64,000 nt of DNA, taken from NCBI GenBank assembly GCA_035610835.1, contig CM069457.1, forward strand, positions 37,536,553 through 37,600,552, given 5' to 3'. The translations under genes and the position numbers were made by a program. The DNA comes from Ophiura sarsii (lineage: Eukaryota > Echinodermata > Ophiuroidea > Amphilepidida > Ophiuridae). Positions 2,955 to 62,840 of the stretch are shown here, one piece after another. Below the pieces are notes generated by a model. That model did no database searches. It was given only the letters and a program-made list of their open reading frames with translations, and had not been told where the DNA came from. The stretch's first letter is position 1. The number at the start of each line of letters is the position of its first letter.

Positions 2955-5600
<2,646 letters not shown>

Positions 5601-15463: not shown

Positions 15464-15520
15464 TCAATCTTCATCACTGCTCCAAGTATCAGCTGTTGCT
15501 CCCACTGTTGTTTTCTTCGG
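15464..15520 (-). CDS. ERCC8: ERCC8 exon 9 (C-terminus and stop)
   Basis: Residues 381-398 and [21 protein letters not shown]. The end matches the human C-terminus (EDAWSSSDEEG). The acceptor TTTTCTCATAG| puts the first codon in phase 0, as exon 8 requires; an in-frame TAG overlaps the acceptor, so the exon cannot extend upstream. No AATAAA was assigned with confidence. Confidence 0.9.
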   Translation of the reverse strand, partial: PKKTTVGATADTWSSDED

Positions 15521-36500: not shown

Positions 36501-39500
36501 TGTACACTGGATACAAATTGATACAGATATCCATACAAACGAAGCTTAATATGACACGCACGATTCATTTAGATTCATTAAAGTTATTGTAATGATATCT
36601 GCTGAAAATCATGTTATATTTGACTTTTTTTTAGTTCAGAATTGTTGTATTTGCGATTGATTTATACTCACAGTAATATCGCGACAGAATCATCCGTGCA
36701 TATTTTATACTGGTGTTTTTTTTCTTCCTCTTTTGCAACTAGCACCGGTCTGTGCTAGCAAATTAAAGCACATGACAATTGACATCGAAGAAAAACACAC
36801 AGCGTCAATTGCCTTGCGTAATACCTGCTTGAACCATAATATACTACTACTATAGGATCAGTATGCTAAATACAACTACTGTTGGTAATAGATGTGCCTA
36901 CGAAAGGCACGGAATAGCTCAAAATTCGGCCAAAAACATAGTTGTATGTCTTTTTTAATTGAGTGTCGGGTTAAAAACTCGACAGTCTCGACGTCTTTAT
37001 ACGTGTGGTAATTTTTTTTTAGTAAATGAAATTTTATATTCGCGAAATTAAGTTTCCGCGAAATTAGTGATGATAAGCAATTTGCGAAAAAAACATGCCG
37101 CACAATTAACTTGGTTTACAGTATCTCCATGTATATGAATATGTATGTATAACCCCTATATCTCCTACAATTGATGTTATAGCCTGACAATTTGGTATGG
37201 AACACACTATAAAAACTTCCTTACCTGAATACATTGGGTGAAATAAACAACAGTTTACATTATGGTAATATCATATCAAATGGTTCATCAATTCGCCATG
37301 CTGAAGATCATATGCTTAATGGATGTGTCCAGCAAGCAATACATTGCGCATTATATCTTAGACAAATAATTATCGAGCTCAAATTGAGTATTTGTATAGA
37401 ACAAAACATCATACTTATTATAAAACGAATAAAAACTGCCATCTCTCAATATGCCAACTGTTAAATTTCGCGGCGATCGAAAGTCCCGGTATCAATGAAG
37501 TCGTAGTTATAAAGGGTTCAACAAAAGAAAGTATACACTTTGTTTATGTCATTTTGAGTAACATTTAATTTTTGTTGTTGACCAAACAGGCTAGATAGGC
37601 ATTTAGATGAATCTTTTAACCCTTTGAACCCTGAGTTATTGGTGGGGGACGGCACCTCCACCCTGAGTTATTTTGAGGAATAATGGATTTATTACCCCGA
37701 GTCTTACACCCTCTGATTCACCTTGGATTCACCGTCTCCAATAATGACATACTGCCCTCTATCATCGTAAATACATTATTCGTAATAAAACATCGTTCTT
37801 ATCCGATCTTTATTCTTTTTTTATCGCCAAATTGGCTATTTATAACCGTAATACAATGCATGTCTGTCTACCTGAGAAACATCTGCGCATGCGCATTCAT
37901 CCCACTTCGTGCTATTTTTGACAGTTTTGTTCTGCCAAATGACATCAAAACACAACGTAAATCTGGCGAAACAAGGTATTTCAGTTCGGGTATAAACATC
38001 ACATGATTTGAGAGTCATATGACCACTCAAAGTCACATGATCAATGTCACCTGTTCTAAGGCCGCTATAGCGGCCTTTCAGGTTATAGCGATCACTCCGT
38101 GCGGCCGCTAAAGCTAAAGCGGCCTTTCGGGTTCAAAGGGTTAAGCATAATTTGATACCAAATTTGCCCCCTAACAACAAAGATAAACCATGATTAGCAC
38201 CATTTAAAGAAAATTAGTCACTTTTCAAAAGTCACATTTTCAATACACTATGCGGGAAGAAAAGACCACATGATACCTGTCCATAATCAAATAGACCGCT
38301 CGTTCAGGCACAACCCAACACATCCCCACTGTGTGATCAATATCCATTTCATTCCCGGCCATTCAAAGTGCCACGTACAGCATTTTCTCGCGGCTTGCAT
38401 GCGTTAAAAATGTGACTTTTGAAAAGTGACCAATTTTCTTTAAATGGTGCTATGGTTTATCTTTGTTGTTAGGGGCAAATATGCCTATCTGGCCTGTTTG
38501 GTCAAAAAAAAAATTAAATGTTACTCAAAATGACATAAACAAAGTGTATACTTTCTTTTGTTGAACCCTTTATAATGCACTTGCGCAAATTTGAGCACCA
38601 ATAACTATGATGTAATTGAAACCCAGACTTTCGATCACCGCAAATTTTAAAAATTGCATGTTGAGAGATGGCAGTTTTGATTGGTTTTTGTGATAAGTAG
38701 GATGTTTTGTTCTATATAACTACGTGATTTGAGCTCAATAATTATTTTTGTAAGATATATTGCACAATATTGTACTTGCTGGACACCTCCTTTAATAGAA
38801 TCGATATTATATTCTGCCTATTTTGTCCCGGACACACTATAACTATTTTCTTACCTGATAAATTGGGTGAAATACACAACAGTTAACATTATGATAATAC
38901 CCATTGAGATTTTACACCAGCTCCCCATTCTGATAATCATATACTATTAATATATCTCCTACATACAATTGACAATATAGATTGCCATTTTTGGCCCGGA
39001 CACACTATAACATTTCTTACCTGATAAATTGGGTGAAACACACAACAGTTAACATTATGATAATGGCCATTGAGATCATACACCAACTCCCCATTTTGAA
39101 GATCATACACTCCTATCTCCCCGACACATGGCACGAAGACTGCGTCGGGCTGTGAGCCTGCAGACACTGCCATTTTGAGAGTCTTTCTGCCATCGTTGTA
39201 AACTTTGCCGAAGTTGATCTGAAAATGTAAAAGGCCAGAAAGAATATTACTTAGGGCTCTTGCCCAAATACAAGTAGAGGAAAGCTCGAGGAAAGAGCGG
39301 GGAAAGCTCGATCCTTTTTTCTATATTGTTAAAAGGAGTGACAAAGGATCAGTGATTAACACCTCACTGAATGGGTACTTCAAGTACCTATTCAGTGAAG
39401 TGATTAAAATCACTGATCCTTTGTAGCGCTGGTCCGTACTAAGGGTATCAAAATCTCAAATTTCAGAGAATAAGGGTGTCTTTTTCAACCTAAATATGTG

Positions 39501-42500
39501 CTAAGGGTTGCTTGGGCCAATAGTCAAACATCATTATTGTAAAAATAGCCTAAAAATGGTTAGGCCTTTAAGACAAATTTACAAACAAAACTGAATCACA
39601 CAATTACTTCATAAGATTTTTCAGTCTAAACTCTGTCTTGAGGACCTATATCCTTTGCTACGAGTATGATTCGTCAAGCTATAATCCTTGTTTATGGGTC
39701 ACTGTTTCCTTGTTTGAGAATCCATGTTAAGGGTAGTTTTGAGAGTGAATTCACACGGATGATTACCACTTTTATACATGAGTGCCCCCCCCCGGGTATT
39801 AGACCTCTGAGCGGGTTAAAAAAAATTCACCCCAACCTCATCCTGGACTTCCCTGTTTCCATCTACCCCTGAACCAATCCAACCTGAACATTTAAAGGCA
39901 AACCCAATTTACCCCAACACGCAAGATATTTTCCAAGACCGAACCGGGTCAAATTGGAACCGGGTCTGTCCATTTATTTTTGTCAACCCCATCCCTCCCC
40001 TCGACATGAATCGTTAGATTTATTTCACCACTCACGTTGATTGTTGAATGTTTAGTATTTTGAGATCGATTAGGATTGTTGGGCAAATATAGGAATGTAT
40101 ATAAACATGGGTATAGTGCAATATGTGTGCTAGAGAGAGTGTTTTAAATGGATGAAAAACGTTCTGAAATATTGTGGATTTTGTCTTGCTTTAAATTATT
40201 TCCCTGTCCTGAATGTAAAATTGGCCCGATTCAACTTGACTATAAGCTGATGGGAATAATAAAATAAATAATAATCAGTATTTATAGCGCCTTTTCCAAA
40301 TGGCTCAAAGCGCTGTAATTTTGCTGCTGGTGAATCATCAGAATCAGGTCGCATCAACTAGGGTGCTGCCAATTTCTAGCGCAAACCTATCCGCAGTTAG
40401 ATTGTAACATCCACCATTTTTCAATGCAGCTCCCCAAATACCTTTGGGTCAAGGAAGTTTTTGATAACCGAAACAACTGATCACTGATTTTGAAAGCAGG
40501 AGGAAACCGGAGAAAACCTGCGAGAGCGTGCATGGATCGTGATAAACCAAATGCACATAAAGCCCGCGGTCGTGCACAGAATTGACCCGGGTTTCATTGG
40601 TGCAAGGCGCCAACACGCTTCCCCTTACTCTTCAGGAAAGATATGGGTCCCGCCCTGATTATTTTCTGGTACGGTCCATGGGACCTGATAGGACACCGCA
40701 CACTTTTTTGCCGTGTTCTTTTGCCAGTCCATCGATTTGGTCCACCATTTTTAAAGATGGCAGCCATATAGAGGGATGCGGGGACCCAGTCTAATTTGAT
40801 ACCCACCACATGTGATACCCATGTGATCCCAGTCATTTGCCCATGTGATACCCATCATTTGCCCATGTGATTCACATGATCAAACCTCTACATCATCACT
40901 TACCAGTGTATTTCTACCCATGATAGTTTCTCATTACCGCAGTCAGTCATTTGTTACAAAACTCACAAGATGAAGTCAATCCCATGTGAAATCCCATCAT
41001 TTGCCCATTTGATACCCAACACTCATTCATATGATACCCATGTGATACCCATCATTTGCCCAAATGATCAATCATCACTTACCAGTGTATTTTTGCCTGT
41101 GATAGTTTCCCATAACCTCAGTCTGTCGTCTGTACCAAAACTCACAAGATAAACTCAACCCCATGTGAAGCCCATCATTTACTCATGTGATACCCATGTG
41201 ATACCCATGTGAAACCACTTACCAGTGTATTTTTGCCTGTGATAGTCTCCCATAACCTCAGTCTGTCGTCTGTTCCAAAACTAACAAGATGAAGTCCGTC
41301 TTCTGTGAACGACAGCCCATTCACATGGCCATTATGAGCTGTGTGAACTGTGGAAAGCATAATTAAAAAACACTATTGAATTGTCTTTAAAAAACACTAT
41401 TCCAATAGCTATAGTCAATGTCTTAACACTTTCCACGCAGCAGGCGTCTGCAGGCGACATTCCAAAATTTCAAAAAAATGTTTAAAAAATGTAAAAATTA
41501 TTGAATTTAATTACCATATTTGGAATCATCATGAGAAATGCATTAAAATATGTACAAACATGCCTAGTATTGGTTCAGTAATCCTTGAGATAGATCTTGA
41601 AAGTTGGAAAAGGTTTCTGAAAAATCTGTTTTGTAATTGGTGAAACCAATAGCCGTGTGGAAAGTGTTAATACTATGGACATAATTCAAGCTATTTCACG
41701 CGAGCGTGTTTTGTTGCTGTTCACGAAGCTGTGCCAAATCATAAATATGCCAACAACTATGCATGCATGCGCGTCACGATTGACCAATCGGTCATTTTTG
41801 AAATCGCCCGGTACACACTTCCCAGTTTACGCACGCACGCATTGTTGGAATTATGTCCAAAGTATTGATGCTTACTATAATCAGAGACAGGAGCACCCCC
41901 ATAAGTAATGCCAATTTGACCTTATTAATGGGTCCTATTATCAGAAGTCTGTCTCATGTGATGGGTACACATATGGCTTGTTTGGTGACCCTTACACTAC
42001 AGAATAAGTTTAAAACATTTAAGTTGTATAGTTTATAATATTTGTATTCAAATTTATGATGTCACAGGTTAGTAAACAAGAAATTAAAGCACTTTTGTAA
42101 CTTAACCGCTGAAGTAGAGGCCAAGATTGCAACACTATATAGCCGATCAGCGCATCATATTCTAACAAATGGATAAAAAAGCATGCATATCAAACTCCAA
42201 TGTTTTGTACACACCCACCTTCAAAGAAGAGGGATTCAGTCTATATGAGGGCCCCTAGTATGCAGCATCATATCATAATGCCTATCATCTGAAGTATAGG
42301 GTCAAAACCTGATCAATGAAAGCCTGCAAGAATGCTAGACTCGATCATTCATGTCTTCCCTATTTTACAAGAAAAAATAGTTCCAAAATTGTGCGCTGAT
42401 AAACTCGTGAATAAACATGAGCTACTTAGTCATGCACCATCACGCCACTGTGCGCTGGTAGGACGCACTATCTTGCCTCCCAAGGCGGAGCGTGATGATC

Positions 42501-45500
42501 GTTCGACGACGCTGCATTTGAATGGACCAATCGGGTGGTATTTCAGTTGTTGTTGGGCACAAATGAGCATGCTCTGTGGGTCGTTTAAATAGTCATGCCA
42601 AATACATGTGGAATTCCACAAGAAACTGCACACTTTTTGGACATACTATTTTCCCAGTCCCTCTTTTTTTAAAGATGATGGCCATATAGAGGGACGCAGG
42701 GACCCAGTCTACAGGAATGGTTGCATATTTTTGGGCACTATTCACAAATAGGAATATTTTGGTATGACCCAGATATCTCAATATTAACACTCGCGACTTC
42801 CGACTGGTTTTTCCATACCACCACACATATGTACACCTAACACAAAAGTTTCAAACCAGGTGCTTTAATGTTAGCTAATTTAAAATCAGTAACACACAAT
42901 AAAAAAAACTGAGATAAATACTTAACAAGCAAATTTCCTCACAATATGACACCTATCTCATTCATAAACATTAACTGGAAACTTTCAAGTTATGATGCTT
43001 TTAATTAACTACACTTAAAGGTAGATGACCCGATCACATTTTCGTAACACAGAATTATTTCAAACATACGAAGATTTTCATATCATATGAAAGCTCGTAT
43101 TTTTCTCATCATCATACTGAAATTTGACGGCCTAAATCGGTATAATTACTGAGAAATCGATGAAACAACGTTGAATTACCGCGAATGGTGGTAACCACCG
43201 ATATAGTTTGTGTACTACTCAATGGGTACAGTTCACAGCATCTTGTGCGTCTAAAATAAGAACCATTTAGAGCTATGCAACTCAAACTTTGGAACACAAC
43301 TTTTTTAAGGATGACCTATCATGTAGAATAGAAAACTTCAAGTTGAAAATCGGAACATCTACCTTTAACAGGTAAAAAGTTGTTTTTTGTGTGGGATGTC
43401 ATTGATTTATATTGAACACTGTGTGTGCTATCGAAACTGCTGGCCAGGAATGTATGGATTAATTGTGAGCTGTGATTCATTTTACACACATTGTCACTGC
43501 TGAGCACACACTAGGCAATGATATCCCATTGAAAATCACTTTAATGCAACTTTGTGCTCGGTTGGTATGATTAACTTTAAGTCATCATAACTTCAAAAGT
43601 ATCCACTCAATTTTTATGAATGCAATGTCATATTGTGGAGAGGAAATTTGCTCATTTAAATGTATGTCGCAGTGTTTTGATAACAATTAGCGATTCAATA
43701 TAAAATTAGCTGACATTAAAGCACCTGGTTCAGAATTTTTTGTATTAGGTGTAGGCCAGGCCTACCTGCTGTTGAAGTGCTACCCACTGTCTCTCCATTG
43801 TGTTGATCCAGAGTCATCAGCCTTCCCTTTGCATGCCTGACATCCCATAATAATATCTTGTTGTCACGACTGTAGGGCGACAGATCAAAAAGAAATAAAG
43901 CATTATACAGGCCAAGGAGAGAAGTAATTTTCGCGAGTGGACATGAAAATGCAAAAAATATAAACACACAAAAATATTCTTTTGCAATAGAATCTTACTA
44001 TAATTCACCGTATGTTGTATGTATGTGTGTATGTGCGTATGTGTGTGTGTATGTATGTATGTGTGTATCCTGAAAAGGCTTTCTCATTTTGCATTTTAAA
44101 GCCGTGAATATTTCACTGATACTAAATAAAGACCGGACACTGGTTATAAGCTATAAATGGCCGAAAACCGTACAGAATTAACCGAGATATGAGCAAAATT
44201 ATGTCCAATTTAGGCCTTTTCAGCCCGGCTATTGAGACTATTTCATGTTTGTTTTTCTCTGCGTACACTGTAACCATGCAGTCGGCGCGCGTTACACATA
44301 GCGCGCAGCAATGCGCCATGCAAAATAAACGCGCACACGCACTACACCCACGCACCCCTACACACGCGGGCAGGCAAATATTGGAGAAATACGCTGCGCC
44401 ACGGGAGTTGGTTTCGGTTTAGGCCTTGGGGTTGCATAAGCCACGGGGCGGGGGCGGGGCGGTTAGGGGTTGTGTGTAATGATCCCTTTAGGGCCTAGGT
44501 TATGCTCTGGTTATGTAGTTTGGGATGGGGTTAATAAAGAAATGTATTATTAAATTGCGTAACGATGGTGTCAGATGTGGGATTTGATACTGTATGTGAC
44601 ACGCGGGCGGACAAATATTGGAGAAGTACGCCGCGCTACGGGAGAGAGTTAAGGTTAGGCCTTGGCGTTGAGATCAATTGCGGGCGGGGAACTTTGGGTT
44701 TTGGGCTTGAGGTATGCCACGGGGAGGGGCGGGTGGGGGGGGGGGGGGGGGCGGTGACGAATGGGGGTTGTGTGTAATGATGTAATGTGGTTTGGGAGAC
44801 AGGGGGTTAATGAAAAAATGTGATGCTAAATTGCGTAACGGATATGCCACTGGACGGGGCGGGCCGGGAGGGGACAGGGAGGGGGAGGGACGGGTGGGGT
44901 ACGGGAGATGGTTAAGGTTTAGGCCTTGGTGTTGAAATATGCCACGGGGCGTGTGCGGGCGGGGGTAATTTTCAAAAAAAATTGAAATTGAAATTTAAAA
45001 ACTTTTGAATTAGGCTACAAAGCCTTTTGATTTAAAACAAAAATGTTTTAAATATTGTTCTATTCCTATGTGTTTCCTTATAAATTTTCAACACTTTATT
45101 TTTGTAGGTGTCTATCTGGTAGGCCCTACTCCCTAGCGGGAGAGCCCGTCCGCAGGACGGGCGTGCCGCTAGTTACATTATAATTAATGGAGAAAGAGCG
45201 AAATTCAAGTTTTGCACATTTTCCAAAAATATAAAATCTAGAAAATATCTATGCGTGAAAATTACCACTAATACAGTGTATTATTTGGTCTTCATGTATT
45301 TGACAAAGAAAGAGCAAATTTGAGATTTTGTTTATTTCTTTTGTTGTTGTTTTGTTTGTTTTATTTATTTTTTAAATGGTCTTTAAAATTGTGTTTTTTT
45401 CTTCTTTTTTTTTCTTAGCAATTTCAGAAATTTCAATAACATATAGAACAGGTTTGAAACTCAAAAACTAACCAACATGGGGTCTCTTTACCCCAAAGCA

Positions 45501-48500
45501 TGAGAGGTGTTACGAGAAATTTTGTTAACCACCCGCTTCAACAGAACAAGATGTGCCCAAAAAAAGGAGCACAATTTGCAGAAATGACATTTTCACAGCA
45601 CTGATCAGTGCTTATCCTCATAACTCATCGGTCAAGAAAAAGTGGCCCAATATTGGGCTACGTAATAACCAGTTTGGTAACACTGTTAAAACTCACCTCC
45701 CACTTGCCAGCAGGTACTCACTCTTAGTAGACCACTTGACGCTCATGACAGAATCTCTATGACCTTTCAGGATGTGTGTCGACGACCCCGATTTGAGGTC
45801 ACAGAGCGTGATGTGTGCACTTAGGTCACCAACTAGTGAAAACAAAAATAGAAAAGGTAAATAGGTCAACATCTCTTTATATCCTATCAATTTTTCTTTT
45901 TGATTTTAAAGAAATATTCAATATTTTAACAATTTCAAACATTTTTCTAAAATTAATTGTAAATTTGGAAGAAAAACACATCTCAAATTCACAATTTATG
46001 TAAATAATATTGAGTTGTTGTCTAAAAAAACCCAGAAAATTGTAAATTAGTCAAAATTTCTTAATGAGTCCACACCACTTGATGAATAATGGAACAGTCC
46101 ACAAAAGACCTGTTGAATTGTGTGGGATGACACTCCACTAAGTGAATATATGAAAATGTTCCAAAAGTAGTGTTGTTGGCTAAAATTTTGGATGATTATT
46201 AAGATCATCAAACAATATCAGTGCAAATGTTCTTCTTTTGACCAATTTTGTATGATTTATAGTCATTTACTTCAATAATTTATTAGAATCGCATAGACCT
46301 AGGCTAGGCCTGGGCACTCTACAAACACGGTGCATATCTCAAAAATGTTGCCTTGACCTTATTTATTTTTAATGATTGCAGGAAAGCCAAGACAGATCTT
46401 CATCCAAAATACATACATTCAAAATGCTTATATAGCGCTGCTACATAAAGAGCGCTGCTACATAAAGAACGCAGCGCTTTAGACCAAAAATATAAATGGC
46501 AAAAAGAGAAAAATACATGCAAAAGAACAAACAAGCAAAGGAGTTAGGCAGGATACAAATGTGTTTTTAAAGCACTCTTAAAACTAGATAATGTGTGGGA
46601 TTCTCTGATGCTAACAGGTAAACTGTTCCAGATATGAGGAGCTGAATAGGAAAAGGTCTTCTTAACAGCAGATTTTAAGGTTCAGATGGAGTTATGCTCA
46701 GCAAGTCGGGTTGTGTCCAAAGCTGAACGAAGACCAGAGCGGGTCGGATGATGTAAGGAGAGACATTCAGATAAATATTCTGGTGTCATCCCATTAAGAC
46801 ATTTGAAGACAAGCAGCAAGGTCTTAAATGTGATTCTACCCGCAATTGGCAACCAATGCAATTGATGTAAATATGGAGTTGCATGTTCCCGTTTCAAAGC
46901 TTGGCAAATCAGTTTCGCAGCCCAGTTTTGTATTCGCTGTAACTTCTTGATGTCTGTTTTGTTAGCACCAAGAAGGAGACCATTGCAATAGTCAAGTCTG
47001 GAGAGGATAATCGCACGGATAATAAGATGACAGGTGTCATAGTCCAGGAATCTACGTATGCGAGATATATTGCGCAATTGAAAGTTAAGATTGCTGCAGA
47101 GGGATTTAACATGCAACGACATGGACATTTGTTGATCAAAGATGACACCTAGGTTACAAACACTGTCACTAGGAGCAATGACCTTATCCTCAACAAGCAA
47201 TGAAACGGGTGACATGTGACGTTTGAAATGAGGGGATGTTATGACCATGAATTCTGCCTTGTCTTCATTTAGTTTGAGCATAAAATGTTAAGTTGAAGCA
47301 ACCAGTTGCTTTATAAGCGAGTAAATGGCGTTCAATTATGGCCCATTTTACACAGTATACTCCCTGTCATAATGCCTTGGACATAATTCCATCAATTATG
47401 CATACATGAAAGTTGCATACGTATGTGCGCGTTGCAATGCATAGGTGTAAATGTGCGTAAACCCGGAAGTGGGTACCGGTCCCTTTAAAAAAATAGTCGC
47501 GCATTATAATTGGTCAATCGTGAAATCGTCACACGCCATGATTGACAGCGCGTGACCATAGCCACGCTATTCATGAATATGCGTGTCGAGGTGAATAGTT
47601 GTTAAGCATTTTGACGCAGCGCCCCGCAAACAACAACAAAATAAGCTTGCATGAAATAACATGAATTTATGTCCGAGGAACTATGACAGGGAGTATAGGT
47701 ATAGGGGATTTATTTAGTGGTGTGGATCCCATTGAATCAATTACCTGCTATAAGACAGTGCTTTAATAGCTATATGTTTGGTTGACGTAACCCGACCGAC
47801 CCTAAATTTTACTACCGTCAATGATCAATAATGTGAACAACCCTATTTTCGATCTGTAAATAGAAGGTGCTAATCTATTTTCACATTCAACCAAACTCAC
47901 ACTTCTGCGGCAGCGCAAATGTAACTATGTCAGAAAAGACAAGAAAATTGTACTTTAGGTCTCAGGCATGTATAAAGTGTCTGGAATAAAGTGCATTATA
48001 TTTTAACTCTTTTTATTTTTATTACCTTGGATTGAAAGTACAATAAAAAGTCTGCATCACACACATTAACCAGAGAGCGCCCTCTTTTAGCGCTAGACTG
48101 GTGTCTCTCTTTGACAGGCAGAAACTGTGACCTTCTGGACTGCTCCAGTCGTTGGCAAGACACTAGTAGTAAGTACATCGAAACCCTTTACATTTTTTTT
48201 AATTTCATTTTTTGTGTGAAAAAAACCCAGTAAAAATGTGTATTTGTGCCATTTGTTTATGTCTGTATGGTATATGTGTGCTGGTATATAAAATGTCATA
48301 GACGTTTTATAGATTTTAAAAAAAATTAAAAAAATTAAAAAAATCCGACCTACCTACCCTATTTTTTTTCTATGTTACACCAATCAAACTTCTTTTTTTT
48401 TAGGCCTAAGTGCCCTCTCCCTTTTTTGGTCCAGACTAAAATTCCCAATATTGTATAAAGTATATTTTCTGATTACAGTGGGGAAATTCCGTAAAGTCGG

Positions 48501-51500
48501 ATGTACATGTACATATCTCACACTTCAACGGTTTGGTGGTGTGGATCCTATTGAATCAATTACCTGCTATGAGACAGTGTTTAGTAGCTATAGGTGACAT
48601 ATCATGGTTGTAAATCGGCTTATCAAAGTCAAATACATCAGCTGGCACCAGGGTATTCGTGTCCCATATCTTTAACTTCATGTCCATTGAGCTTGACGTA
48701 AACATGCCAGTGTCGTGGGGGTACCATTGTACCGTCTCCACACTGCGCTTGTGTACATGGCGATTTGATCTGTGAATAATAAGAAAATGATAAGATTTTA
48801 CTCTCCTTCATATCTGTTCATACTGCATATCACAGACATAGCACAAATGCTGTCTACCGTAGATAGCACACATCCTTCCTACTGAAGATAGCACAAATAC
48901 TGTCTAATGAAGATAGCACACATCCTTTCTACTGAAGATAGCACAAATACTGTCTACTGAAGATAGCACACGTCCTTTCTACTGAAGGTAGCCAAATGCT
49001 GTCTACTGAAGATAGCACAAATGCTGTCTACTGAAGATAGCACAAATACTGTCTACTGAAGATAGCACACATCCTTTCTACTGAAGATAGCACAAATGCT
49101 GTCTACTGAAGATAGCACAAATGCTGTCTACTGAAGATAGCACATATCCTTTCTACTGAAGATAGCACAAATGCTGTCTACTGAAGGTAGCCAATTGCTG
49201 TCTACTGAAGATAGCACAAATGCTGTCTACTGAAGATAGCACAAATACTGTCTAATGAAGATAGCACACATCCTTTCTACTGAAGATAGCACAAATACTG
49301 TCTACTGAAGATAGCACACGTCCTTTCTACTGAAGATAGCACAAATGCTTTCTACTGAAGATAGCACAAATGCCATCTACTGAAGATAGCACAAATGCTG
49401 TCTACTGAAGATAGCACAAATGCTGTCTACTGAAGATAGAACATGTCTGTATTCTGAGCACATTTGTCAAATTGATCTGTAAATAACAAAGGTGGTGATA
49501 ATATTACATGGGCCATCATCTATCTTCATTTAAAATCATCACCAAATTACAGCTTTTTGATGGCATGCATGATCATAAAATTTCGAAGATTAAAATATCT
49601 CCTTTAAAATGCAATAAAAAGAGACATGACAATTTTTGTATATGAAATGATGGTTCAACCCTGTATGCAGGCTCAATAATCACAAAGTTATAACCAAAAG
49701 TATGTCACCTTATATTGCCAAAAACTGTGCAGAAAAACATTGTTGAGTTATGGCCATTAGACATTCTCATATAGAAACCTGTGCTAATTTTACACCATTT
49801 TAGCTTAAATGATCTTTATTTTCACGATGTCCAGTTGCTTGTGTGTGGTTATTTAGGCATCAGTGAATTCACCCCAGATCCCGGATCCCAAATATTTACA
49901 ATTCTGGATTTAAAGGTGGGGTAAACATGGACTTTTCATTTCCTCATATAGGCTTATACACAGCAAAGTACCCTGCCAAATTCTGGACACATGTCATGAT
50001 GAGTGTGCACAACTTTTGTCATAAAGGGCGTCCTCTGTGATCAATAATGTGAACAACCCTATTTGATCTGTAAATAGCAAGGTGCTAATCCATGCGTGTT
50101 CATCTTGACTAGGGCTCTTAAGAAGGGACTTGCCTTGAGGCATCATGCTTGGTGGGCATTTTCCCTTGATATGTTGTATATGATCTGACATTGAAGTGAT
50201 AACAGGTTAATAAAACTGACCAATCACAGGCTTGTATAGCCTGTCAATATTATCCAGAATTGAAATTTGATTGTTGAATACCACCTCTGTGTGAGGAAAG
50301 TGAATGTTAACGCGGCTATTTGTTTTACCATATTATATACAAACAGATTTTTCAGAAACCGTTCCCAACTTTCAAAGTTTATCTCAAGAATTACTGAACC
50401 AATACTAGGCATGTTTGTACTTATTTTAATGCATTTCACATGGTGATTCCAAATATGGTGAAGCAATTCATTAGTTTTGATATTTTTGAAACATTTGTAA
50501 AATTTTGGAACTGTCGTCTACAGTCGCATGCCGCATGGAAAGTGTTAATTTGAGGGCCCATAGGAGGTAATCATATTGTCAGTGGGTATTCTAGTGCAGG
50601 TGCTGCTCTCTTGAGTCGCATCTCGCTACGCTCACAGCGCAGAAGTCCTGTTCTGTTGCATCTCCCTACGCTTGCAGCATGGAACTAGTGCTGCCCTCTA
50701 TTATAACATTAGCTTGGTATCTATATCTCCTTACCTTCCAACTGTACATATTGTCTCACACATAAACTCCTTAGCGCAGGGTTTGCATTCTGTATCATAC
50801 ACAGCTATGACACCCTCTGCGCCACCAGAGAGCACCCTCTATAGCATCGCTTATGAAGATATCTCCTTACCTTCCAACTGTACATATTGTCTCGCACATA
50901 AACTCCTTAGCGCAGGGTTTGCATTCTGTATCATACATTGCTATGACACCCTCTGCGCCACCAGAGAGCACCCTCTATAGCATCGCTTATGAAGATATCT
51001 CCTTACCTTCCAACTGTACATATTGTCTCGCACATAAACTCCTTAGCGCAGGGTTTGCATTCTGTATCATACACTGATATGACACCCTCTGCGCCACCAG
51101 AGAGCGCCCTCTATAGCATCGCTTATGAAGACATCGCCTTACCTTCCAACTGTACATATTGTCTCACACGTAAACTCCTTAGCGCAGGGTTTGCATTCTG
51201 TATCATACATTGCTATGACACCCTCTGCGCCACCAGAGAGCGCCCTCTATAGCATCGCTTATGAAGACATCTCCTTACCTTCCAACTGTACATATTGTCT
51301 CGCACATAAACTCCTTAGCGCAGGGTTTGCATTCTGTATCATACATTGCTATGACACCCTCTGCGCCACCAGAGAGCGCCCTCTATAGCATCCCTTATGA
51401 AGATATCTCCTTACCTTCCAACTGTACATATTGTCTCGCACATAAACTCCTTAGCGCAGGGTTTGCACTCTGTATCATACATTGCTATGACACCCTCTGC

Positions 51501-54179
51501 GCCACCAGAGAGCGCCCTCTATAGCATCGCTTATGAAGACATCTCCTTACCTTCCAACTGTACATATTGTCTCACACATAAACTCCTTAGCGCAGGGTTT
51601 GCATTCTGTATCATACACAGCTATGACACCCTCTGCGCCACCAGAGAGCGCCCTCTATAGCATCGCTTATGAAGACATCTCCTTACCTTCCAACTGTACA
51701 TATTGTCTCACACGTAAACTCCTTAGCGCAGGGTTTGCACTCTGTATCATACATTGCTATGACACCCTCTGCGCCACCAGAGAGCGCCCTCTATAGCATC
51801 GCTTATGAAGACATCTCCTTACCTTCCAACTGTACATATTGTCTCACACATAAACTCCTTAGCGCAGGGTTTGCATTCTGTATCATACACAGCTATGACA
51901 CCCTCTGCGCCACCAGAGAGCGCCCTCTATAGCATCGCTTATGAAGACATCTCCTTACCTTCCAACTGTACATATTGTCTCGCACATAAACTCCTTAGCG
52001 CAGGGTTTGCATTCTGTATCATACATTGCTATGACACCCTCTGCGCCACCAGAGAGCGCCCTCTATAGCATCGCTTATGAAGACATCTCCTTACCTTCCA
52101 ACTGTACATATTGTCTCACACGTAAACTCCTTAGCGCAGGGTTTGCACTCTGTATCATACACTGTTATGACACCCTCTGCGCCACCAGAGAGCGCCCTCT
52201 ATAGCATCGTTTATGAAGACAATCATATCCTTACCTTCCAACTGTACATATTGACTCGCACGTAAACTCCTTAGCGCAGGGTTTGCATTCTGTATCATAC
52301 ACTGCTATGACACCCTCTGCGCCACCAGAGAGCAAACTGAAAAAAAATACAATATTCATATAGATTTAACCACTTAGGCGAAGAAAAAAAACCCTGTTTT
52401 ACGGGCTGACGGACCTGCCAAGGTCGGTCAGTTTTCTTTTGAGTTTTCACCAAAATCTTCAAAAATCAAGGAATTTTTTTAAAATTTGTGAAAAACATTT
52501 TTCAACAGATTTTCAGCCAAAAAACGGCTGATTTTACACGGTTTAAAAAAAAAGAAAATCTAAAAAAATCTAAAAAATGTCTTGAAAAATGCAAAAAGTG
52601 GGTTGGTCTTTTTTATCCCATTTCAACTTACTGCCTCAAATTGTCCCTCGCTCATGATAATTCCCCTCCTATCCTTATTTCCCCATCATTCCTCTTCCAA
52701 CTCATACCATCTTGCCACCTTCCCTTCTCATCCACAACATTTCCCTTCCCTAACCTAAGCACCAGGATTTTGTAGGGCCTAACCTTTATAAATCTCCTCC
52801 CAATTTCCACCTGTTCTCAGCTTGTTTACGCCTCCCATCCCAACACTCTCCAACTCAAAACCTATTTCCTTCTTCTCTCCTAATTCTCCTGACATCATAA
52901 TAATAGTTAATACTCCTTAAACATGATCTCCATTCCCCTCCTCATCCCTATACCCCCCCCCCTCGCCCCTCCCCCTCGGTCACTCGGCATATATAAGTAT
53001 CCACATCCAATAAAGCCATTGGAAAAGGTCAAGATTTCGCCAAATGATGCTGTTGACATACTTTATTCTTTTGAAAAAAGGAGTGCATTTTAGTGAATTT
53101 CATCGATGTTTAGGGCTAGTAATTGTATTTTTGACTGGAGTAAAATGGAGAGAGAAAAGAGAAAACCTGTGATATTTGGCTTGTTTTAGTTTGCTAACAG
53201 CCTAACATACTTCTTGAATTTCTGCAGTGAAATCCGGACTCCATTTATAACATTGGTCCCAGTTTTCTCGCAAGTGCGAGTGAGGCTGTTATAGGGTAGA
53301 CTCTGAGATAAGAGTGTCTGTGTGTTACGCCATTTACCATTTAGGGGTATCAATATGGTTATAAATGTGATGCGATCTGTGAAAACCCGCCACATGTCGG
53401 GATTTTTCCTATTGGAGATATTTATATCATAATAAAGCTGAATCTGTGCTGATTACAGAACTGTTTCGATCATTTTTCTACGATCACTACAACAAAAGTT
53501 ATGAGTGAATGATGATTGTGATGTCATAAAACGCTATAAAACAAGAAATCATGAAAACAGGCCATAAAAGATACATAGTTCAATAGAATAACATTATAAG
53601 GCTACTTAGAAAAGTGACTTAAGTAAGTTTTTGAAGGTGAAATTTCATAAAGGTGATGACACAAAGTAATAGAAATTAATTTTCTAAACAAAATCTTTAA
53701 AAAAAATGATTTTTTTTTAAATTTTATTTATTTATTTTTATTTTTTATTTTACCCATAATCCCTATTTCACATTTTGCGACATCCGACGGGTTTTCACAG
53801 ATCACATCACAAATGTTCTTTATAACATTTAAGGTTTTAGAATTGCATTGACGAGCATTGGTAGCCATTTGGCGGGAGAATGACCCACCAACTCTGGGTT
53901 TGACCCATACACTCTTCTATCCATCTCTATTCCCACTCTCAACCCCCCCCCCCCCCCTCCCAGTCCAATCCCATCCAACCTCATACAAAACCTCAATCAC
54001 ACTTACTATCTACATTCAGTGGAATCAATATCCAAGGCATGGACTCCATTGGCATGGATACGCTGTACATCTTTGGTCTTACACAGCTCTAAGCTGAACG
54101 TCCTCCGCGTCACCTCCGCTCTTGGCAGTGCGTCCGGTCGGTGCGTCCCCATCGCTCTGGCGTTGAGAAATTTCAACAT
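15464..54179 (-). CDS. ERCC8: ERCC8/CSA, complete nine-exon gene (DNA excision repair WD40 protein)
   Basis: CSA is the WD40 receptor of the CUL4-DDB1 ligase that ubiquitinates stalled RNA polymerase II and CSB in nuclear transcription-coupled repair. I joined nine minus-strand segments: 54179-54007, 52336-52235, 48769-48564, 45832-45697, 43869-43766, 41347-41223, 39218-39021, 17500-17405 and 15520-15464. All introns are GT-AG, phases close at every junction, and the sum is 1197 nt, giving 398 aa plus stop (human CSA is 396 aa). Alignment to the human protein, from memory, is collinear from start to stop. Conserved parts are the N-terminal DDB1-binding helix region (residues 1-57), [18 protein letters not shown] in exon 3, the WDVR (DWD box, about 214-217) in exon 5, and the acidic C-terminus WSSDED. 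Introns are about 1.7, 3.5, 2.7, 1.8, 2.4, 2.0, 21.5 and 1.9 kb. Identity is firm; exact ends rest on splice-site reading. Confidence 0.96.
15855..16850. repeat. 40-bp hairpin minisatellite in ERCC8 intron 8
   Basis: About 24 units of GTTTGTTTTGCTGTCTACTG / AAGATAGCAGTACACAAATA. Each unit contains GCTRTCT-ACTGA-AGATAGC, a 7-bp stem with a 5-nt loop (one G-T pair in most units). Because 40 is not a multiple of 3, each frame shows a 40-residue period; the open frames here are by-products. Confidence 0.95.
16851..17404. other. ERCC8 intron 8, no further feature
   Basis: Unique-looking AT-rich intron sequence between the minisatellite and the exon 8 donor. Confidence 0.5.
17405..17500 (-). CDS. 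ERCC8: ERCC8 exon 8
   Basis: Residues 349-380. [16 protein letters not shown] matches human ELYSGSRDCNILAWVP (last WD blade), then an acidic [10 protein letters not shown] tail. The acceptor is TTTTATAG|GAGCTT and the donor is CAGAAG|GTTAGT. If the donor were not used, the frame would stop three codons later at 17396-17398. The match of exon 9 to the human C-terminus argues for splicing. Confidence 0.93.
17578..17825. mobile_element. CACTTTCC MITE, full length
   Basis: Left TTAGCACTTTCCATGCGGC, right GCAGCGTGGAAAGTGTTAA. Confidence 0.85.
18255..18503. mobile_element. CACTTTCC MITE at duplication edge (copy 1)
   Basis: Left end TCAACTTTCCACGGGGC, right GCTGCGTAGAAAGTGTTAA. Partner of 26500-26748. 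A hAT-like GTGCGCCACTGG end abuts on the left. Confidence 0.82.
19437..19678. mobile_element. CACTTTCC MITE
   Basis: TTAACACTTTCCACGCGGC to GCATGGAAAGCGTTAA. Partner of 27662-27904. Confidence 0.85.
20284..20648. mobile_element. TTAA element, AGGCATATTATGTGATC family, long snap-back
   Basis: Arms of about 150 bp are near-perfect inverted repeats (AAATCATGGTTTTAGAGTGA at the centre). The same sequence in copy 2 of the duplication has the empty TTAA at 28536-28539, so this inserted after the duplication. Confidence 0.92.
21620..21848. mobile_element. CACTTTCC MITE
   Basis: TTAACACTTTCCATGCGGC to CACATAGAAAGTGTTAA. Partner of 29547-29780. Confidence 0.85.
22273..22519. mobile_element. CACTTTCC MITE, opposite orientation
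   Basis: Begins TTAACACTTTCCACGCAGCA; the right end is eroded (GCCGCGTGTAAAGTTG). Partner of 30950-31193. Confidence 0.82.
23927..24174. mobile_element. TTAGGCGAC-family MITE (copy 1)
   Basis: TTAGGCGAGGAAAAAACACC with CCTGTTTTACGGGCC, to TTTTTTCGTCGCCTAA. Present at the same place in copy 2, so older than the duplication. Confidence 0.82.
24631..26499. other. Unduplicated spacer between segmental copies
   Basis: No gene seen. A single GCTATCTTCAGTAGATAGCA hairpin, the minisatellite core in the opposite orientation, occurs at about 25889-25908. A GGGGGTGG tract lies near 25470. Confidence 0.55.
26500..26748. mobile_element. CACTTTCC MITE at duplication edge (copy 2)
   Basis: TTAACATTTTCCATGTGGC to GCCGCGTGGAAAGTGTCAA. 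Confidence 0.82.
27662..27904. mobile_element. CACTTTCC MITE
   Basis: Near-identical to 19437-19678. Confidence 0.85.
29547..29780. mobile_element. CACTTTCC MITE, first of a tandem set
   Basis: Followed at about 380-bp steps by 29932 and 30308, each with the same GTCAGCACTTGACATG-type flank, so the MITE was amplified with its flanks rather than inserted three times. Confidence 0.85.
29932..30166. mobile_element. CACTTTCC MITE, second of the tandem set
   Basis: TTAACACTTTCCATACGGC to CACATGAAAAGTGTTAA. Confidence 0.85.
30308..30555. mobile_element. CACTTTCC MITE, third of the tandem set
   Basis: TTAACACATTCCAAACGGC to GCCGCGTGGAAAGTGTTAA. Confidence 0.85.
30950..31193. mobile_element. CACTTTCC MITE, opposite orientation
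   Basis: TTAACACTTTCCATGCAGCA to CCGCTTGTAAAGTTG. Confidence 0.82.
31376..31428. repeat. G-rich tract
   Basis: About 50 nt, nearly all G with a few T, on the plus strand. Copy 1 has a C-run at the matching place (about 23015), the opposite strand composition. Confidence 0.85.
31715..31858. mobile_element. Fragment of the CTGTAAAACAAGTTAATTTCGCG MITE family
   Basis: Ends TTAACTTGTTTTACAGTA. Repeated TTCGCGAA motifs as in 36387-37121. Absent from copy 1, so a later gain. Confidence 0.7.
32040..32590. repeat. 144-bp tandem repeat, four units
   Basis: The CACACTTGGGACAGAC block recurs at about 32098, 32242, 32386 and 32530. Copy 1 has a single unit at about 23803. Confidence 0.88.
32649..32888. 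mobile_element. TTAGGCGAC-family MITE (copy 2)
   Basis: Orthologous insertion to 23927-24174. Confidence 0.8.
33525..33817 (-). mobile_element. TTAA element with CCCTAAC ends and tRNA-like core (second copy)
   Basis: Ends CCCTAACTCTCC and, complemented, CCCTAACGCTCC, beside TCAA and TTAA. The minus strand has TAGCTCAGTCGGTACAGCA (A box) and GGTTCGATCC (B box). The matching site in copy 1 (near 24500) is an empty TTAA, so this inserted after the duplication. Confidence 0.82.
34425..34672. mobile_element. MITE with TATAGTCCCTGTCATA ends
   Basis: TATAGTCCCTGTCATATTTC at the left and GTATTATGACAGAGACTATA at the right. Inner TTGGACATAATTC/GAATTATGTCCAA pair. Related to 47353-47698 and 41671-41885. 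Confidence 0.75.
34890..35219. mobile_element. Palindrome-array MITE
   Basis: The termini GGAAAAAGTGTACTTTA and TAAAGTATACTTTTTCC are inverted. Between them are six to seven CCAGTATCG-NN-CGATACTGG palindromes (up to about 26 bp), spaced about 25-40 bp. The sibling at 9835-10098 keeps only the right end. Confidence 0.88.
35221..35510. mobile_element. Partial relative of the 37316 TTAA element
   Basis: CACTTTGTTTATGTC, TTGACCAAACAGGCTA and AAGATAAGCCATGATTA blocks match the arm of 37316-38795. Termini not found. Confidence 0.65.
35971..36348. mobile_element. TTAGGCGAC-family MITE
   Basis: TTAGGCAACACACAAAAAAG with CCCTGTTCTACGGG, to GTAGAATGGGGTTTC and TCGTCGCCTTT. Confidence 0.7.
36387..37121. 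mobile_element. TA-flanked MITE with CTGTAAAACAAGTTAATT ends
   Basis: CTGTAAAACAAGTTAATTTC at the left and AATTAACTTGGTTTACAG at the right, each beside TA. Several TTCGCGAA motifs. Fits a mariner-type non-autonomous element. Confidence 0.78.
37316..38795. mobile_element. 1.48-kb TTAA element with arms of several hundred bp, inserted in an exon 7 relic
   Basis: Ends GGATGTGTCCAGCAAG and CTTGCTGGACACCTCC beside TTAA. The inverted arms continue through AACAAAAGAAAGTATACACT and the AAGATAAACCATGATTAGCA block for about 390 bp once the nested element is removed. No transposase frame. Confidence 0.85.
37617..38143. mobile_element. TTAA element with CCCTTTGAACCC ends, nested
   Basis: TTAACCCTTTGAACCCTGA at the left and GGGTTCAAAGGGTTAA at the right. 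Inserted in the left arm of 37316-38795; the intact right arm shows the undisturbed order. Internal GGCCGCTATAGCGGCC palindrome. Confidence 0.85.
39021..39218 (-). CDS. ERCC8: ERCC8 exon 7
   Basis: Residues 283-348, phase 0 at both ends. [12 protein letters not shown] aligns with human VNYGKVCNNSKK, and [19 protein letters not shown] with ITMLKGHYKTVDCCVFQS. The acceptor is ATTTTCAG|ATCAAC and the donor is TATCAG|GTAAGA. An imperfect hairpin lies about 130 bp upstream of the acceptor (39349-39426). Confidence 0.95.
39349..39426. repeat. Hairpin upstream of ERCC8 exon 7
   Basis: ACAAAGGATCAGTGATT and the complementary arm with TTCACTGAATAGGTAC/GTACCTATTCAGTGAA at the tip; arms of about 38 bp with a few mismatches, in intron 6 near the acceptor. 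Confidence 0.8.
39437..39795. repeat. Dispersed repeat, partner of 13740-14222
   Basis: Same ordered blocks as the first copy, ending in the same C-run. Confidence 0.7.
40258..40610. repeat. Dispersed repeat with TATAGCGC...AAAGCGCT and GGAGGAAACCGGAGAAAACC
   Basis: Resembles 3' ends of widespread invertebrate retroposons by its GCGCTTT inverted pair and conserved GGAAACCGGAGAAAACC box. Class not established. Confidence 0.45.
40640..40795. repeat. Dispersed repeat, also at about 42625-42715
   Basis: TTTAAAGATGGCAGCCATAT and GAGGGATGCGGGGACCCAGT blocks shared in order by both sites. Confidence 0.65.
40893..41160 (-). pseudogene. Two partial copies of ERCC8 exon 6 3' end plus donor
   Basis: About 75 bp matching the 3' part of exon 6 and its donor recur at about 41078-41155 and 40897-40975, separated by CATGTGATACCCAT-type filler. 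The nearer copy still reads [20 protein letters not shown] before an intact GTAAGT. The farther one is decayed, with an in-frame TGA. Neither has an acceptor, so they are probably non-functional exon relics with decoy donors. Confidence 0.85.
41223..41347 (-). CDS. ERCC8: ERCC8 exon 6
   Basis: Residues 241-282. [19 protein letters not shown] aligns with human TAHNGKVNGLCFTSDGLHL, followed by [18 protein letters not shown]. The acceptor is TTTCCACAG|TTCAC and the donor is ACTG|GTAAGT (phase 0). Two downstream partial copies are listed separately. Confidence 0.96.
41423..41670. mobile_element. CACTTTCC MITE, intact reference copy
   Basis: TTAACACTTTCCACGCAGCA at the left and GCCGTGTGGAAAGTGTTAA at the right, 248 bp, non-coding. 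About 17 copies of this family occur in the window, nearly all ending in TTAA, so TTAA is the likely target duplication. CAC termini plus TTAA suggest a piggyBac-type parent. Confidence 0.9.
41671..41885. mobile_element. Degenerate MITE of the TATAGTCCCTGTCATA family
   Basis: TACTATGGACATAATTC to GGAATTATGTCCAAAGTA; abuts the preceding MITE. Confidence 0.6.
41886..43014. other. ERCC8 intron 5, no gene
   Basis: Unassigned apart from the dispersed repeat near 42625-42715. Confidence 0.5.
43015..43368. mobile_element. TTAA element, GGTAGATGACC family, intact
   Basis: TTAAAGGTAGATGACCCGAT to ATCGGAACATCTACCTTTAA. It includes the uninterrupted TTTTTTAAGGATGACC site that is filled in the 61247 copy. 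Confidence 0.88.
43766..43869 (-). CDS. ERCC8: ERCC8 exon 5, carrying the DWD box
   Basis: Residues 207-240. [21 protein letters not shown] matches human [21 protein letters not shown]. The WDVR is the WDxR motif used by CUL4-DDB1 receptors. The acceptor is CCTACAG|TCGTG and the donor is AGCAG|GTAGGC. A candidate Helitron ends its 5' side about 120 bp upstream of this acceptor. Confidence 0.96.
43993..45172. mobile_element. Candidate non-autonomous Helitron
   Basis: The 3' end has a GCCCGTCC-GCA-GGACGGGC hairpin (45144-45162), 6 nt, then CTAG followed by T. The proposed 5' end is TCTTACTATAATTC after A. Insertion between A and T, a terminal hairpin and CTRR are Helitron hallmarks. The interior is G-rich, with two to three diverged units of about 250 bp (44355-44960). 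No Rep/helicase. Confidence 0.65.
45173..45696. other. ERCC8 intron 4, no further feature
   Basis: AT-rich sequence between the Helitron 3' end and the exon 4 donor. Confidence 0.5.
45697..45832 (-). CDS. ERCC8: ERCC8 exon 4
   Basis: Residues 162-205 plus both flanking split codons. It carries [18 protein letters not shown], nearly identical to human [18 protein letters not shown], then [14 protein letters not shown]. The acceptor is TTTTCACTAG|TTGGTG and the donor is GGGAG|GTGAGT. Confidence 0.96.
46420..47284 (-). mobile_element. CR1/L2-like non-LTR retrotransposon, 5'-truncated
   Basis: The 199-codon frame (46682-47281) is the C-terminal reverse transcriptase region: [48 protein letters not shown] and [17 protein letters not shown] are CR1/L2-type signatures. 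After a stop, the tail [15 protein letters not shown] continues. The rest (RT palm YxDD, endonuclease) is missing. The 3' part has a GCGCTGCGTTCTTTATGTAG duplication. Dead copy in ERCC8 intron 3. Confidence 0.9.
47353..47698. mobile_element. MITE with TATACTCCCTGTCATA ends
   Basis: TATACTCCCTGTCATAATGC at the left, AACTATGACAGGGAGTATA at the right; long inner match TTGGACATAATTC. Confidence 0.8.
47717..47777 (-). pseudogene. Partial copy of ERCC8 exon 3 3' end plus donor
   Basis: GGTGTGGATCC, TTGAATCAATTACCTGCTAT and ACAGTG blocks match the exon 3 donor region (48540-48590). An extra base breaks the frame. The donor AGCAG|GTAATT is intact. Confidence 0.78.
48180..48540. repeat. Dispersed repeat shared with FBXW9 intron (62841-63180)
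   Basis: TGTATTTGTGCCATTTGTTT, ACGTTTTATAGATTTTA, AGTGCCCTCTCCCTTTTTTG and CCGTAAAGTCGGATGTACAT follow in the same order at both sites. Confidence 0.82.
48564..48769 (-). CDS. ERCC8: ERCC8 exon 3
   Basis: Residues 93-160 and one base of Val161. It contains the most recognisable CSA block, [18 protein letters not shown], then LKIWDTNTL and the [12 protein letters not shown] strand. The acceptor is TTCACAG|ATCAAAT and the donor is AGCAG|GTAATT. It joins exon 2 through a split Arg codon (AG|A) and exon 4 through a split Val codon (G|TT). Confidence 0.97.
48850..49442. repeat. 25-27-bp hairpin minisatellite in ERCC8 intron 2
   Basis: About 23 units of CTGTCTACTGAAGATAGCAC plus AAATG or ACATCCTT. 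The TCTACTGAAGATAGCA core is the same as in the 40-bp array at 15855-16850, in the same orientation. Confidence 0.95.
49560..50060. mobile_element. Fragment of the 59446 long-TIR element family
   Basis: GATGTCCAGTTGCTTGTGTG and GTCAATGAT/GTGAACAACCCTATTT-type blocks match the right arm of 59446-60229. Confidence 0.6.
50307..50548. mobile_element. CACTTTCC MITE with damaged left end
   Basis: Left TTAACGCGGC (the CACTTTCCA is lost), right GCCGCATGGAAAGTGTTAA. Confidence 0.8.
50635..52234 (-). repeat. Tandem array of eleven extra ERCC8 exon-2 copies with donor sites (136-bp unit)
   Basis: Directly downstream of the functional exon, in gene direction, the exon plus about 37 bp of intron head repeats. 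Exon-copy 3' ends fall at 52095, 51959, 51823, 51687, 51551, 51415, 51279, 51143, 51007, 50871 and 50735, an exact 136-bp period apart from one 140-bp first step. Every copy keeps GGAAG|GTAAGG and shows no indel or stop in the ERCC8 frame. Differences are point changes, such as Ala/Thr/Ser in GVIxVYD and Thr/Met before Cys. Copies lack the T-rich acceptor; the homology begins at GCTCTCTGG inside the exon. Read-through of any donor gives AGG TAA, an immediate stop. The lowest copy degrades near 50690. Confidence 0.93.
52235..52336 (-). CDS. ERCC8: ERCC8 exon 2, functional copy at the head of a tandem exon array
   Basis: Residues 58-92 (part of WD blade 1), 102 nt, phase 2 at both ends. The acceptor is a strong T-run followed by CAG and the donor is GGAAG|GTAAGG. 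The product reads [14 protein letters not shown] then [11 protein letters not shown], aligning with human MLSGGSDGVIVLYD and YTCKAVCSIGR. This is the only copy in the array with a polypyrimidine acceptor. It also keeps Thr-Cys where several copies have Met-Cys, as expected if it alone is selected. Confidence 0.94.
52377..52620. mobile_element. TTAGGCGAC-family MITE, right end lost
   Basis: TTAGGCGAAGAAAAAAAACC with CCTGTTTTACGGGC; interior AAAAAACGGCTGATTTTA as in sibling copies. It lies about 40 bp upstream of the exon 2 acceptor. Confidence 0.75.
52621..54006. other. ERCC8 intron 1, no gene
   Basis: Includes C-rich and TTTATTTATTTTTA low-complexity tracts (about 52953, 53705-53750, 53942). 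Confidence 0.55.
54007..54179 (-). CDS. ERCC8: ERCC8 exon 1 (start codon)
   Basis: Encodes residues 1-57 and two bases of Tyr58. It begins MLKFLNAR, close to the human N-terminus MLGFLSAR, and continues to the conserved [15 protein letters not shown] stretch that leads into blade 1. The start ATG at 54179-54177 has A at -3. The donor reads GATA|GTAAGT. The N-terminal helices are the DDB1-binding element in the human protein. No 5' UTR or core promoter could be recognised upstream. Confidence 0.95.
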
Positions 54180-62821: not shown

Positions 62822-62840
62822 GTAAGGCCTAAAAAAAATA

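Follow-up and report, generated by a model that had tools for sequence, protein, structure and literature searches.

The question raised by this locus is how a single coding exon of ERCC8 (CSA) came to stand twelve times, together with its 5' splice site, inside an intron of its own gene, and whether the copies have a function. The window, that is, the 64,000 nucleotides (nt) of Ophiura sarsii DNA analysed here, corresponds to C17:37536553-37600552 of a 1.57-Gb chromosome-scale assembly, the only assembly analysed, and ERCC8 lies on its minus strand. As a first-pass annotation had claimed, exon 2 and its donor form the unit of an intronic tandem array of 12 copies of 136 bp (50725-52336, minus strand). 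That annotation treated the array as a peculiarity of one CSA exon, which proved too narrow, because ERCC8 exons 3, 6 and 7 and ten exons elsewhere in the genome are alike in having copies that carry the donor side of the exon.

Structure of the exon 2 array

Tandem Repeats Finder placed the array at 50725-52333, with a period of 136, 11.8 copies and 96% matches. The unit extends from exon nt 4 (99 of the 102 exon bases) to about 37 nt beyond the donor. The copies are the following, copies 2 to 12 each comprising exon nt 4-102 and the donor, without acceptor:

52235..52336, minus strand: copy 1, exon 2 of 102 nt, with acceptor TTTTTTTTCAG, the first donor GGAAG/GTAAGG and in-frame joins to exons 1 and 3
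52095..52193, minus strand: copy 2
51959..52057, minus strand: copy 3
51823..51921, minus strand: copy 4
51687..51785, minus strand: copy 5
51551..51649, minus strand: copy 6
51415..51513, minus strand: copy 7
51279..51377, minus strand: copy 8
51143..51241, minus strand: copy 9
51007..51105, minus strand: copy 10
50871..50969, minus strand: copy 11
50735..50833, minus strand: copy 12, the last, whose intron tail diverges into the flanking intron

The donor GGAAG/GTAAGG is present in exact form twelve times on the minus strand of the array, with a spacing of 140 once and then of 136 ten times. The acceptor is present once only, at copy 1; none was found for copies 2-12, and no AG in the array is preceded by more than 10 pyrimidines in 16 nt. 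Donors were scored with an approximate matrix, which measures consensus only and not use. On that scale the AAG/GTAAGG of the array ranks highest among the eight ERCC8 donors. Intron 2, taken from the exon 2 donor onward, has 243 GT sites, and the 12 that reach this score all lie in the array. Read-through past the donor of copy 1 gives AGG TAA, the TAA ending 4 nt beyond the donor. The earlier description of a single acceptor followed by eleven decoy 5' splice sites, with an immediate stop on read-through, agrees with this arrangement, the decoy role being predicted from the sequence.

The array DNA was found at one place in the genome and its unit nowhere else, which gave no indication of a dispersed satellite or transposon, in a search that skips very common words and leaves rarity unproved; a search of Rfam gave no match. 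As in a minisatellite, the units are head-to-tail and near-identical, with variants in common. As in the donor-multiplying repeats of the ABCA7 and IFI6 type, the array starts inside the exon and takes in its donor, and every one of the 12 units has a consensus donor.

The exon parts of the twelve copies vary at 7 of 99 sites through eight changes, five nonsynonymous and three synonymous, out of 213 nonsynonymous, 62 synonymous and 13 stop changes possible in the unit. This comparison, proposed in the first-pass annotation, reveals a neutral pattern, and with so few changes the missing stops are expected. All twelve copies are open over 32 codons in the ERCC8 frame, as had been noted; since the variation is neutral and the changes are few, the open frames carry little weight and are no evidence of coding. 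Copies 3, 8 and 11 are identical in their exon parts, as are copies 4, 6 and 12. Such a mosaic of common variants would fit unequal exchange or conversion within the array, in keeping with the recent expansion or gene conversion previously suggested by its homogeneity. The functional copy had also been said to differ from the others at residues conserved with human, which is correct only in part. Met for Val and Met for Thr, two residues common in the array, are absent from all six aligned relatives. However, copy 1 is unique only in a Ser (Ala in human); its Thr, the residue also found in human, is common to copies 2, 5 and 9, and its Val (Leu in human) to copies 2, 4, 6, 10 and 12.

The same observations bear on whether the copies could be a cassette of alternative or mutually exclusive exons, spliced in as variants, as the open frames and the four residue positions that differ among copies might suggest. 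In tandem exon duplications and mutually exclusive exons, the copies carry both an acceptor and a donor and can be spliced in. The ERCC8 array is similar in having repeated exon sequence in an intron, but copies 2-12 lack acceptors and polypyrimidine tracts, the 136 bp unit is not a multiple of 3, a TAA lies just beyond the donor and the variation among copies is neutral. Mutually exclusive exons were rejected on the missing acceptors and the stop, and an exon cassette of any form is hardly conceivable. An assembly artefact, by which the copy number was inflated or the array invented, is highly improbable. Although the array rests on one assembly, its 1.6 kb are short for long reads, the copies differ at up to 5 of 99 exon sites with variants common in a mosaic, and similar arrays are found at many other places, with numbers that differ in second gene copies.

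ERCC8 and the copies of its other exons

The gene begins with exon 1 at 54179 and ends with its last codons near 15464. The human protein served to place eight exons, whose splice sites were then read from the sequence; the frame is open across the eight joined exons, and the last exon is known only from its WSSDED-stop end. The protein shows 92% identity to P0002, 85% to that of Amphiura filiformis (P0003) and about 59-71% to those of sea star, sea urchin and crinoid, values that point to a brittle star. All 21 matches of P0003 in the genome (21/21) fell inside the window, which indicates one locus at that sensitivity. A second ERCC8 gene copy was rejected on this result, and to the same extent the first-pass statement that the gene is single-copy holds. 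Besides exon 2, the exons are:

54007..54179, minus strand: exon 1 (coding), from human-protein mapping and splice sites; no extra copy found
48564..48769, minus strand: exon 3, from human-protein mapping and splice sites
45697..45832, minus strand: exon 4; no extra copy found
43766..43869, minus strand: exon 5; no extra copy found
41223..41347, minus strand: exon 6, from human-protein mapping and splice sites
39021..39218, minus strand: exon 7, from human-protein mapping and splice sites
17405..17500, minus strand: exon 8; no extra copy found
15464..15484, minus strand: C-terminal codons of the last exon (WSSDED-stop), exon start unmapped

Four of the eight mapped exons (2, 3, 6 and 7) have extra copies of their 3' end and donor downstream in the same intron. 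The search gave none for exons 1, 4, 5 and 8, and no ERCC8 copy includes an acceptor. Outside the exon 2 array, these copies are:

47713..47777, minus strand: further copy of exon 3, made up of nt 175-206, the donor and some 32 nt of intron; 90.8% identity, donor intact
41010..41169, minus strand: extra copy of exon 6, 3' part and donor, frame broken, donor intact
40840..41009, minus strand: second extra copy of exon 6, 3' part and donor, frame broken, donor intact
38795..38945, minus strand: extra copy of exon 7, 3' part and donor, 84.8%, in-frame stop, donor intact
37157..37312, minus strand: second, older extra copy of exon 7, 3' part and donor, 73.8%, in-frame stop, donor with one base changed and still consensus

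Copy divergence amounts to about 4% for exon 2, 9% for exon 3 and 15-27% for exons 6 and 7; judged from these values, the copies of exons 3, 6 and 7 appear older than the exon 2 array and of differing ages.

The window is rich in local direct duplications, which make up 20% of it compared with 8.5% of 210 kb around chaperonin exons (21 of 27 loci used). The proportion of exons with copies was also higher in ERCC8 (4/8) than among the chaperonin exons (1/57; p 0.0005), and remained so without exon 2 (3/7; p 0.003). However, local direct duplications cover 25.8% of the ERCC8 span, and against this density of the gene's own the touching of 4 of 8 exons was unremarkable (P 0.22, 20,000 circular shifts), so an enrichment of exon-touching duplications was dropped and only the polarity is claimed for ERCC8. 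Four donor ends and no acceptor ends jointly gave P 0.0027 in the same number of shifts.

Exon arrays elsewhere in the genome

We surveyed eight families across the genome, with at least 66 matches for TCP1, 107 for MCM, at least 122 for kinesin, at least 77 for myosin head, at least 115 for SNF2, at least 47 for DEAD, 77 for UCH and at least 19 for ABC. The counts for kinesin, myosin, SNF2, DEAD, ABC and, slightly, TCP1 are lower bounds, since only part of their first-look candidates was scored. The total was at least 630 matches, or roughly 490 positions with array copies counted once, as estimated from the tables. Among the matches listed, arrays of the ERCC8 kind were present in five of the eight families, at ten independent exons outside ERCC8:

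C1:151181387-151191186, minus strand: MCM8-like exon array, about 65 matches, period 144 bp, with a repeat-like insert after copy 4
C1, about 170 kb away: second MCM8-like gene copy, with two full copies followed by the beginning of a third
C3: MCM exon array, two intact donors and a decayed third copy
C3 MCM second gene copy: full exon and one decayed copy
C13, C18 and C10: kinesin exon arrays with units of 192, 182 and 119 bp, respectively
C10: INO80-like exon array, about 39 matches of about 114 bp; its second gene copy on C1 has 8
C16:179300-180250: myosin exon array, 90 bp unit (83 nt exon and 7 nt intron), 7 donors
C4 and C15: myosin exon arrays with units of about 185 bp and 156 bp, respectively
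C4: USP exon array, 12 units of 83 bp

Their common build is a complete exon with a single acceptor word first, followed by copies that start inside the exon and end beyond the donor. In the loci measured, the first base of the copies corresponds to exon nt 4-161; an indel obscures the C4 myosin value, and the USP start was placed by eye near nt 38. These arrays were read as short sequence pieces, the two longest by their ends only, and the C18 kinesin array extends beyond its piece. Their exon ends were inferred from the consensus and the reading frame, and the C4 myosin array may have another donor. Copy number differs between gene copies (about 65 and 2 in the MCM8-like pair, about 39 and 8 in the INO80-like pair), and the second gene copies may be paralogues or uncollapsed haplotypes. 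In nine of 11 arrays, read-through from the first exon meets a stop ahead of the next donor, the exceptions being the C10 kinesin array, where it reaches one further donor, and the C16 myosin array, where it reaches all six.

For TCP1, DEAD and ABC, no array was present among the matches listed. On C7, a TCP1 exon is accompanied by one decayed copy of its 3' end that has lost the donor; the other of two chaperonin candidates was dropped because it proved to be intron only once the sequence was read. Outside ERCC8, donors have also decayed in the last copies of both INO80-like arrays, in the last copy of the C13 kinesin array and in one copy of the C10 kinesin array.

A different arrangement was observed at C9:13813168-13817283 (minus strand), where seven MCM matches of equal score, 639 bp apart, lie in one open frame of 1706 residues. 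This is a coding whole-unit tandem repeat, different in kind from the ERCC8 array. Protein-kinase matches (best 139 of 1655) were nearly all full-length and single-exon, many of them clustered on C4, C1, C10 and C2; within that best 139 of 1655 they represent a large intronless kinase expansion and are uninformative for exon arrays.

The other arrays also allow us to weigh the possibility that the ERCC8 array is kept as a DNA-level element, in which the unit junction TAGAGGGCGC would supply clustered CTCF-like sites. The CTCF core consensus is YAGRKGGCRS, and the window has 13 occurrences of it against 1.6 expected, nine at exon 2 array junctions and one in the flanking intron; nine of the 11 unit junctions hold TAGAGGGCGC as a match to this core (window 50691-52201, minus strand). 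Yet this is one site counted nine times through multiplication of the array, and 16 pieces of other arrays of the same build contained no match, which makes such a role very unlikely.

Polarity of the copies

In ERCC8 and the surveyed families together, all 15 exons with copies among the matches listed have them on the donor side and none on the acceptor side (15:0). If the sides were equally likely, the probability of this would be 3e-5, for a question that was framed after the first cases had been seen. Programmed scans of the match tables returned ten clusters, and in each of them the earliest start belongs to the first match. In the USP array the last match ends seven model positions later, yet the DNA has the same donor there. 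The scans took in 33 of 107 MCM rows, without the 67 from the region of the C1 array and the seven from C9; 76 of 115 SNF2 rows, without those of the C10 array; and 16 of 47 DEAD rows, the remainder standing alone by eye. The 19 rows of PF00005 were read by eye. The chaperonin count given above rests on 57 of 66 rows, after removal of three with long exons and six from an inverted duplicate. Second gene copies (MCM on C1 and C3, INO80-like) were counted once with the first, and the C9 MCM repeat was excluded.

Other repeats in the window

Two minisatellites lie in ERCC8 introns, at 15851-16849 and 48838-49443, with units of 41 bp and 25 bp and about 24 copies each. Both have the core CTGTCTACTGAAGATAGCA, and an inverted relative of the second is located at 54554-54641, upstream of exon 1. 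Two further features were observed in the window:

62077-62829, plus strand: F-box exon (PF12937), with an acidic stretch encoded by a 24-bp minisatellite (62494-62612)
4027-5586, minus strand: C2H2 zinc-finger units in tandem (86/172 bp) whose frame is broken, perhaps the remains of an array of zinc-finger exons

Comparison with known systems

The closest known cases are the donor-multiplying repeats of human ABCA7 and IFI6. The IFI6 repeat has a unit of 12 bp. According to the available text of PMC4526556, this minisatellite supplies alternative splice donors; its units at the exon end act as such, as the candidate donors of the ERCC8 array might, but they are short, their downstream donors are used in known mRNAs and the case is a single one. 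The ABCA7 intron 18 variable number tandem repeat, in the part of PMC5954066 that was accessible, has a 25-bp unit behind exon 18 in about 12-427 units and starts with the exon 18 donor, which forms the first two bases of the repeat. There, retention of one unit occurs independently of length, whereas exon 19 skipping increases and expression decreases with length (PMC5954066). Both this repeat and the ERCC8 array are tandem arrays directly behind an exon, with a donor in each unit. However, as far as the same text goes, the ABCA7 unit starts with the donor and does not consist of coding exon, whereas the ERCC8 unit holds 99 of 102 exon bases; variation and effect are shown in people for ABCA7, whereas the ERCC8 array was read from the DNA of one genome; and arrays of the ERCC8 type are found in many genes of that genome.

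Tandem duplication of exon segments can also create introns, and the accessible part of PMC4974935 gives potato RdRp, ATP2A1 and fission-yeast 24-bp arrays as cases. These duplications likewise place exon sequence in tandem with splice-site letters, but as described there they yield a new intron with its own acceptor, whereas the ERCC8 copies have no acceptor and lie in an existing intron. Earthworm metallothionein has an intronic minisatellite, for which the text available does not indicate an exon origin. Among the papers listed by our literature search, thin on subscription journals, there was no report of satellites made from nearly whole coding exons, nor of their recurrence within a genome or of donor-side polarity.

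Origin and significance of the arrays

We consider it quite likely that short tandem duplications across exon ends are common in this genome, and that these acceptor-less exon satellites arise from them, grow in the manner of minisatellites and survive where splicing tolerates them. In ERCC8, an initial tandem duplication would have run from nt 4 of exon 2 to about 37 nt beyond the 5' splice site, and growth to twelve copies would have followed by unequal exchange, slippage or conversion. Since the exon ahead of the array is intact, its single acceptor and its first donor would still define exon 2 and ERCC8 would stay functional, with copies 2-12 as putative pseudo-exons that offer donors without acceptors. 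Use of a later donor would lengthen the exon, run at once into the TAA and expose the transcript to destruction by nonsense-mediated decay. The polarity could follow from the same scheme: a duplication across the 3' end of an exon would leave acceptor, exon and first donor intact, with the debris downstream, whereas one across the 5' end would place a spare acceptor upstream, transcribed first. We propose that such an acceptor would be met first by co-transcriptional splicing and removed by selection. In favour of the scheme are the anatomy of the array, the intact ERCC8 frame over the eight mapped exons at one locus, the variants common to several copies, the recurrence of this build in ten other exons, the stops on read-through and the polarity, with the ABCA7 repeat as a functional precedent.

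Several points weigh against this scheme. That the first donor is used and that products of the others decay is an assumption made from DNA. In classical work on duplicated 5' splice sites the downstream site was often preferred, so that the rule of the first donor may fail. The available text of PMC5585400 describes competition between 5' splice sites as going either way, set by bound factors. By analogy with ABCA7, where retention was independent of length, a larger number of donors would not necessarily be misused more often. The polarity could have a mutational instead of a selective cause, and taken singly the ERCC8 components were non-significant (no acceptor ends, P 0.07; four donor ends, P 0.11). 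The C16 myosin array is open in frame through all its donors and, judged by that frame, may be coding. Finally, the five decayed ERCC8 copies (exons 3, 6 and 7) have 1 mismatch in 45 positions of the donor 9-mers, against 62/369 in the exon parts (p 0.004) and 32/245 at codon positions 1 and 2 (p 0.02). This donor conservation suggests something that pure neutral decay does not predict, and since the five copies are not mutually independent the test is suggestive only.

As a separate observation on the C16 myosin array, splicing from one of its later donors would add repeats of 30 residues to the motor domain.

The conserved donors introduce the possibility that spare donors are kept for a function, either binding of the U1 small nuclear ribonucleoprotein, as a shield of long introns from early polyadenylation, or a brake by poison-exon extension scaled to copy number. 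The donor mismatches (1/45) are also fewer than those in the intron parts of the decayed copies (56/246, p 0.0003), and donor-like sites in ERCC8 introns are more frequent in sense than in antisense orientation, with 15 against 1 at a score of at least 6.8, 19 against 3 at 5.5 and 24 against 12 at 4.4. The lower expression and greater exon 19 skipping with longer ABCA7 repeats, as reported in the accessible part of PMC5954066, point the same way. However, the copies are few and not independent, and all 15 strong sense donors derive from exons (11 from the array, two from exon 6 and two from exon 7), without which the comparison becomes 0 sense against 1 antisense. Moreover, donors do decay outside ERCC8, in the C7 chaperonin copy, both INO80-like arrays and the C13 and C10 kinesin arrays, and one-unit retention in ABCA7 did not rise with length in that same source. 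A kept function of the spare donors is therefore unlikely. A wider proposal would join both views: donor-bearing exon satellites as a class (about 2% of the conserved exon positions surveyed, perhaps thousands in all), one-sided by the direction of splicing, whose spare donors would in certain genes, ERCC8 among them, be under selection as brakes tunable by length or as shields of the transcript that bind U1. We regard it, as a whole, as rather unlikely.

Returning to the scheme of duplication, growth and tolerance by splicing, the ERCC8 array belongs to a class that recurs in this genome, and the class is of more interest than the oddity in CSA. In genomes of this sort, annotation based on exons and counts of gene copies can be misled by exon copies without acceptors. 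The eleven arrays, of 2 to about 65 copies, offer a natural series on the choice among equal 5' splice sites. In them several donors would compete downstream of a single acceptor, and the second gene copies differ in length; they pose the question of whether the order of transcription decides that choice. The 15:0 polarity provides a direct, testable prediction on splicing as a filter of tandem duplications.

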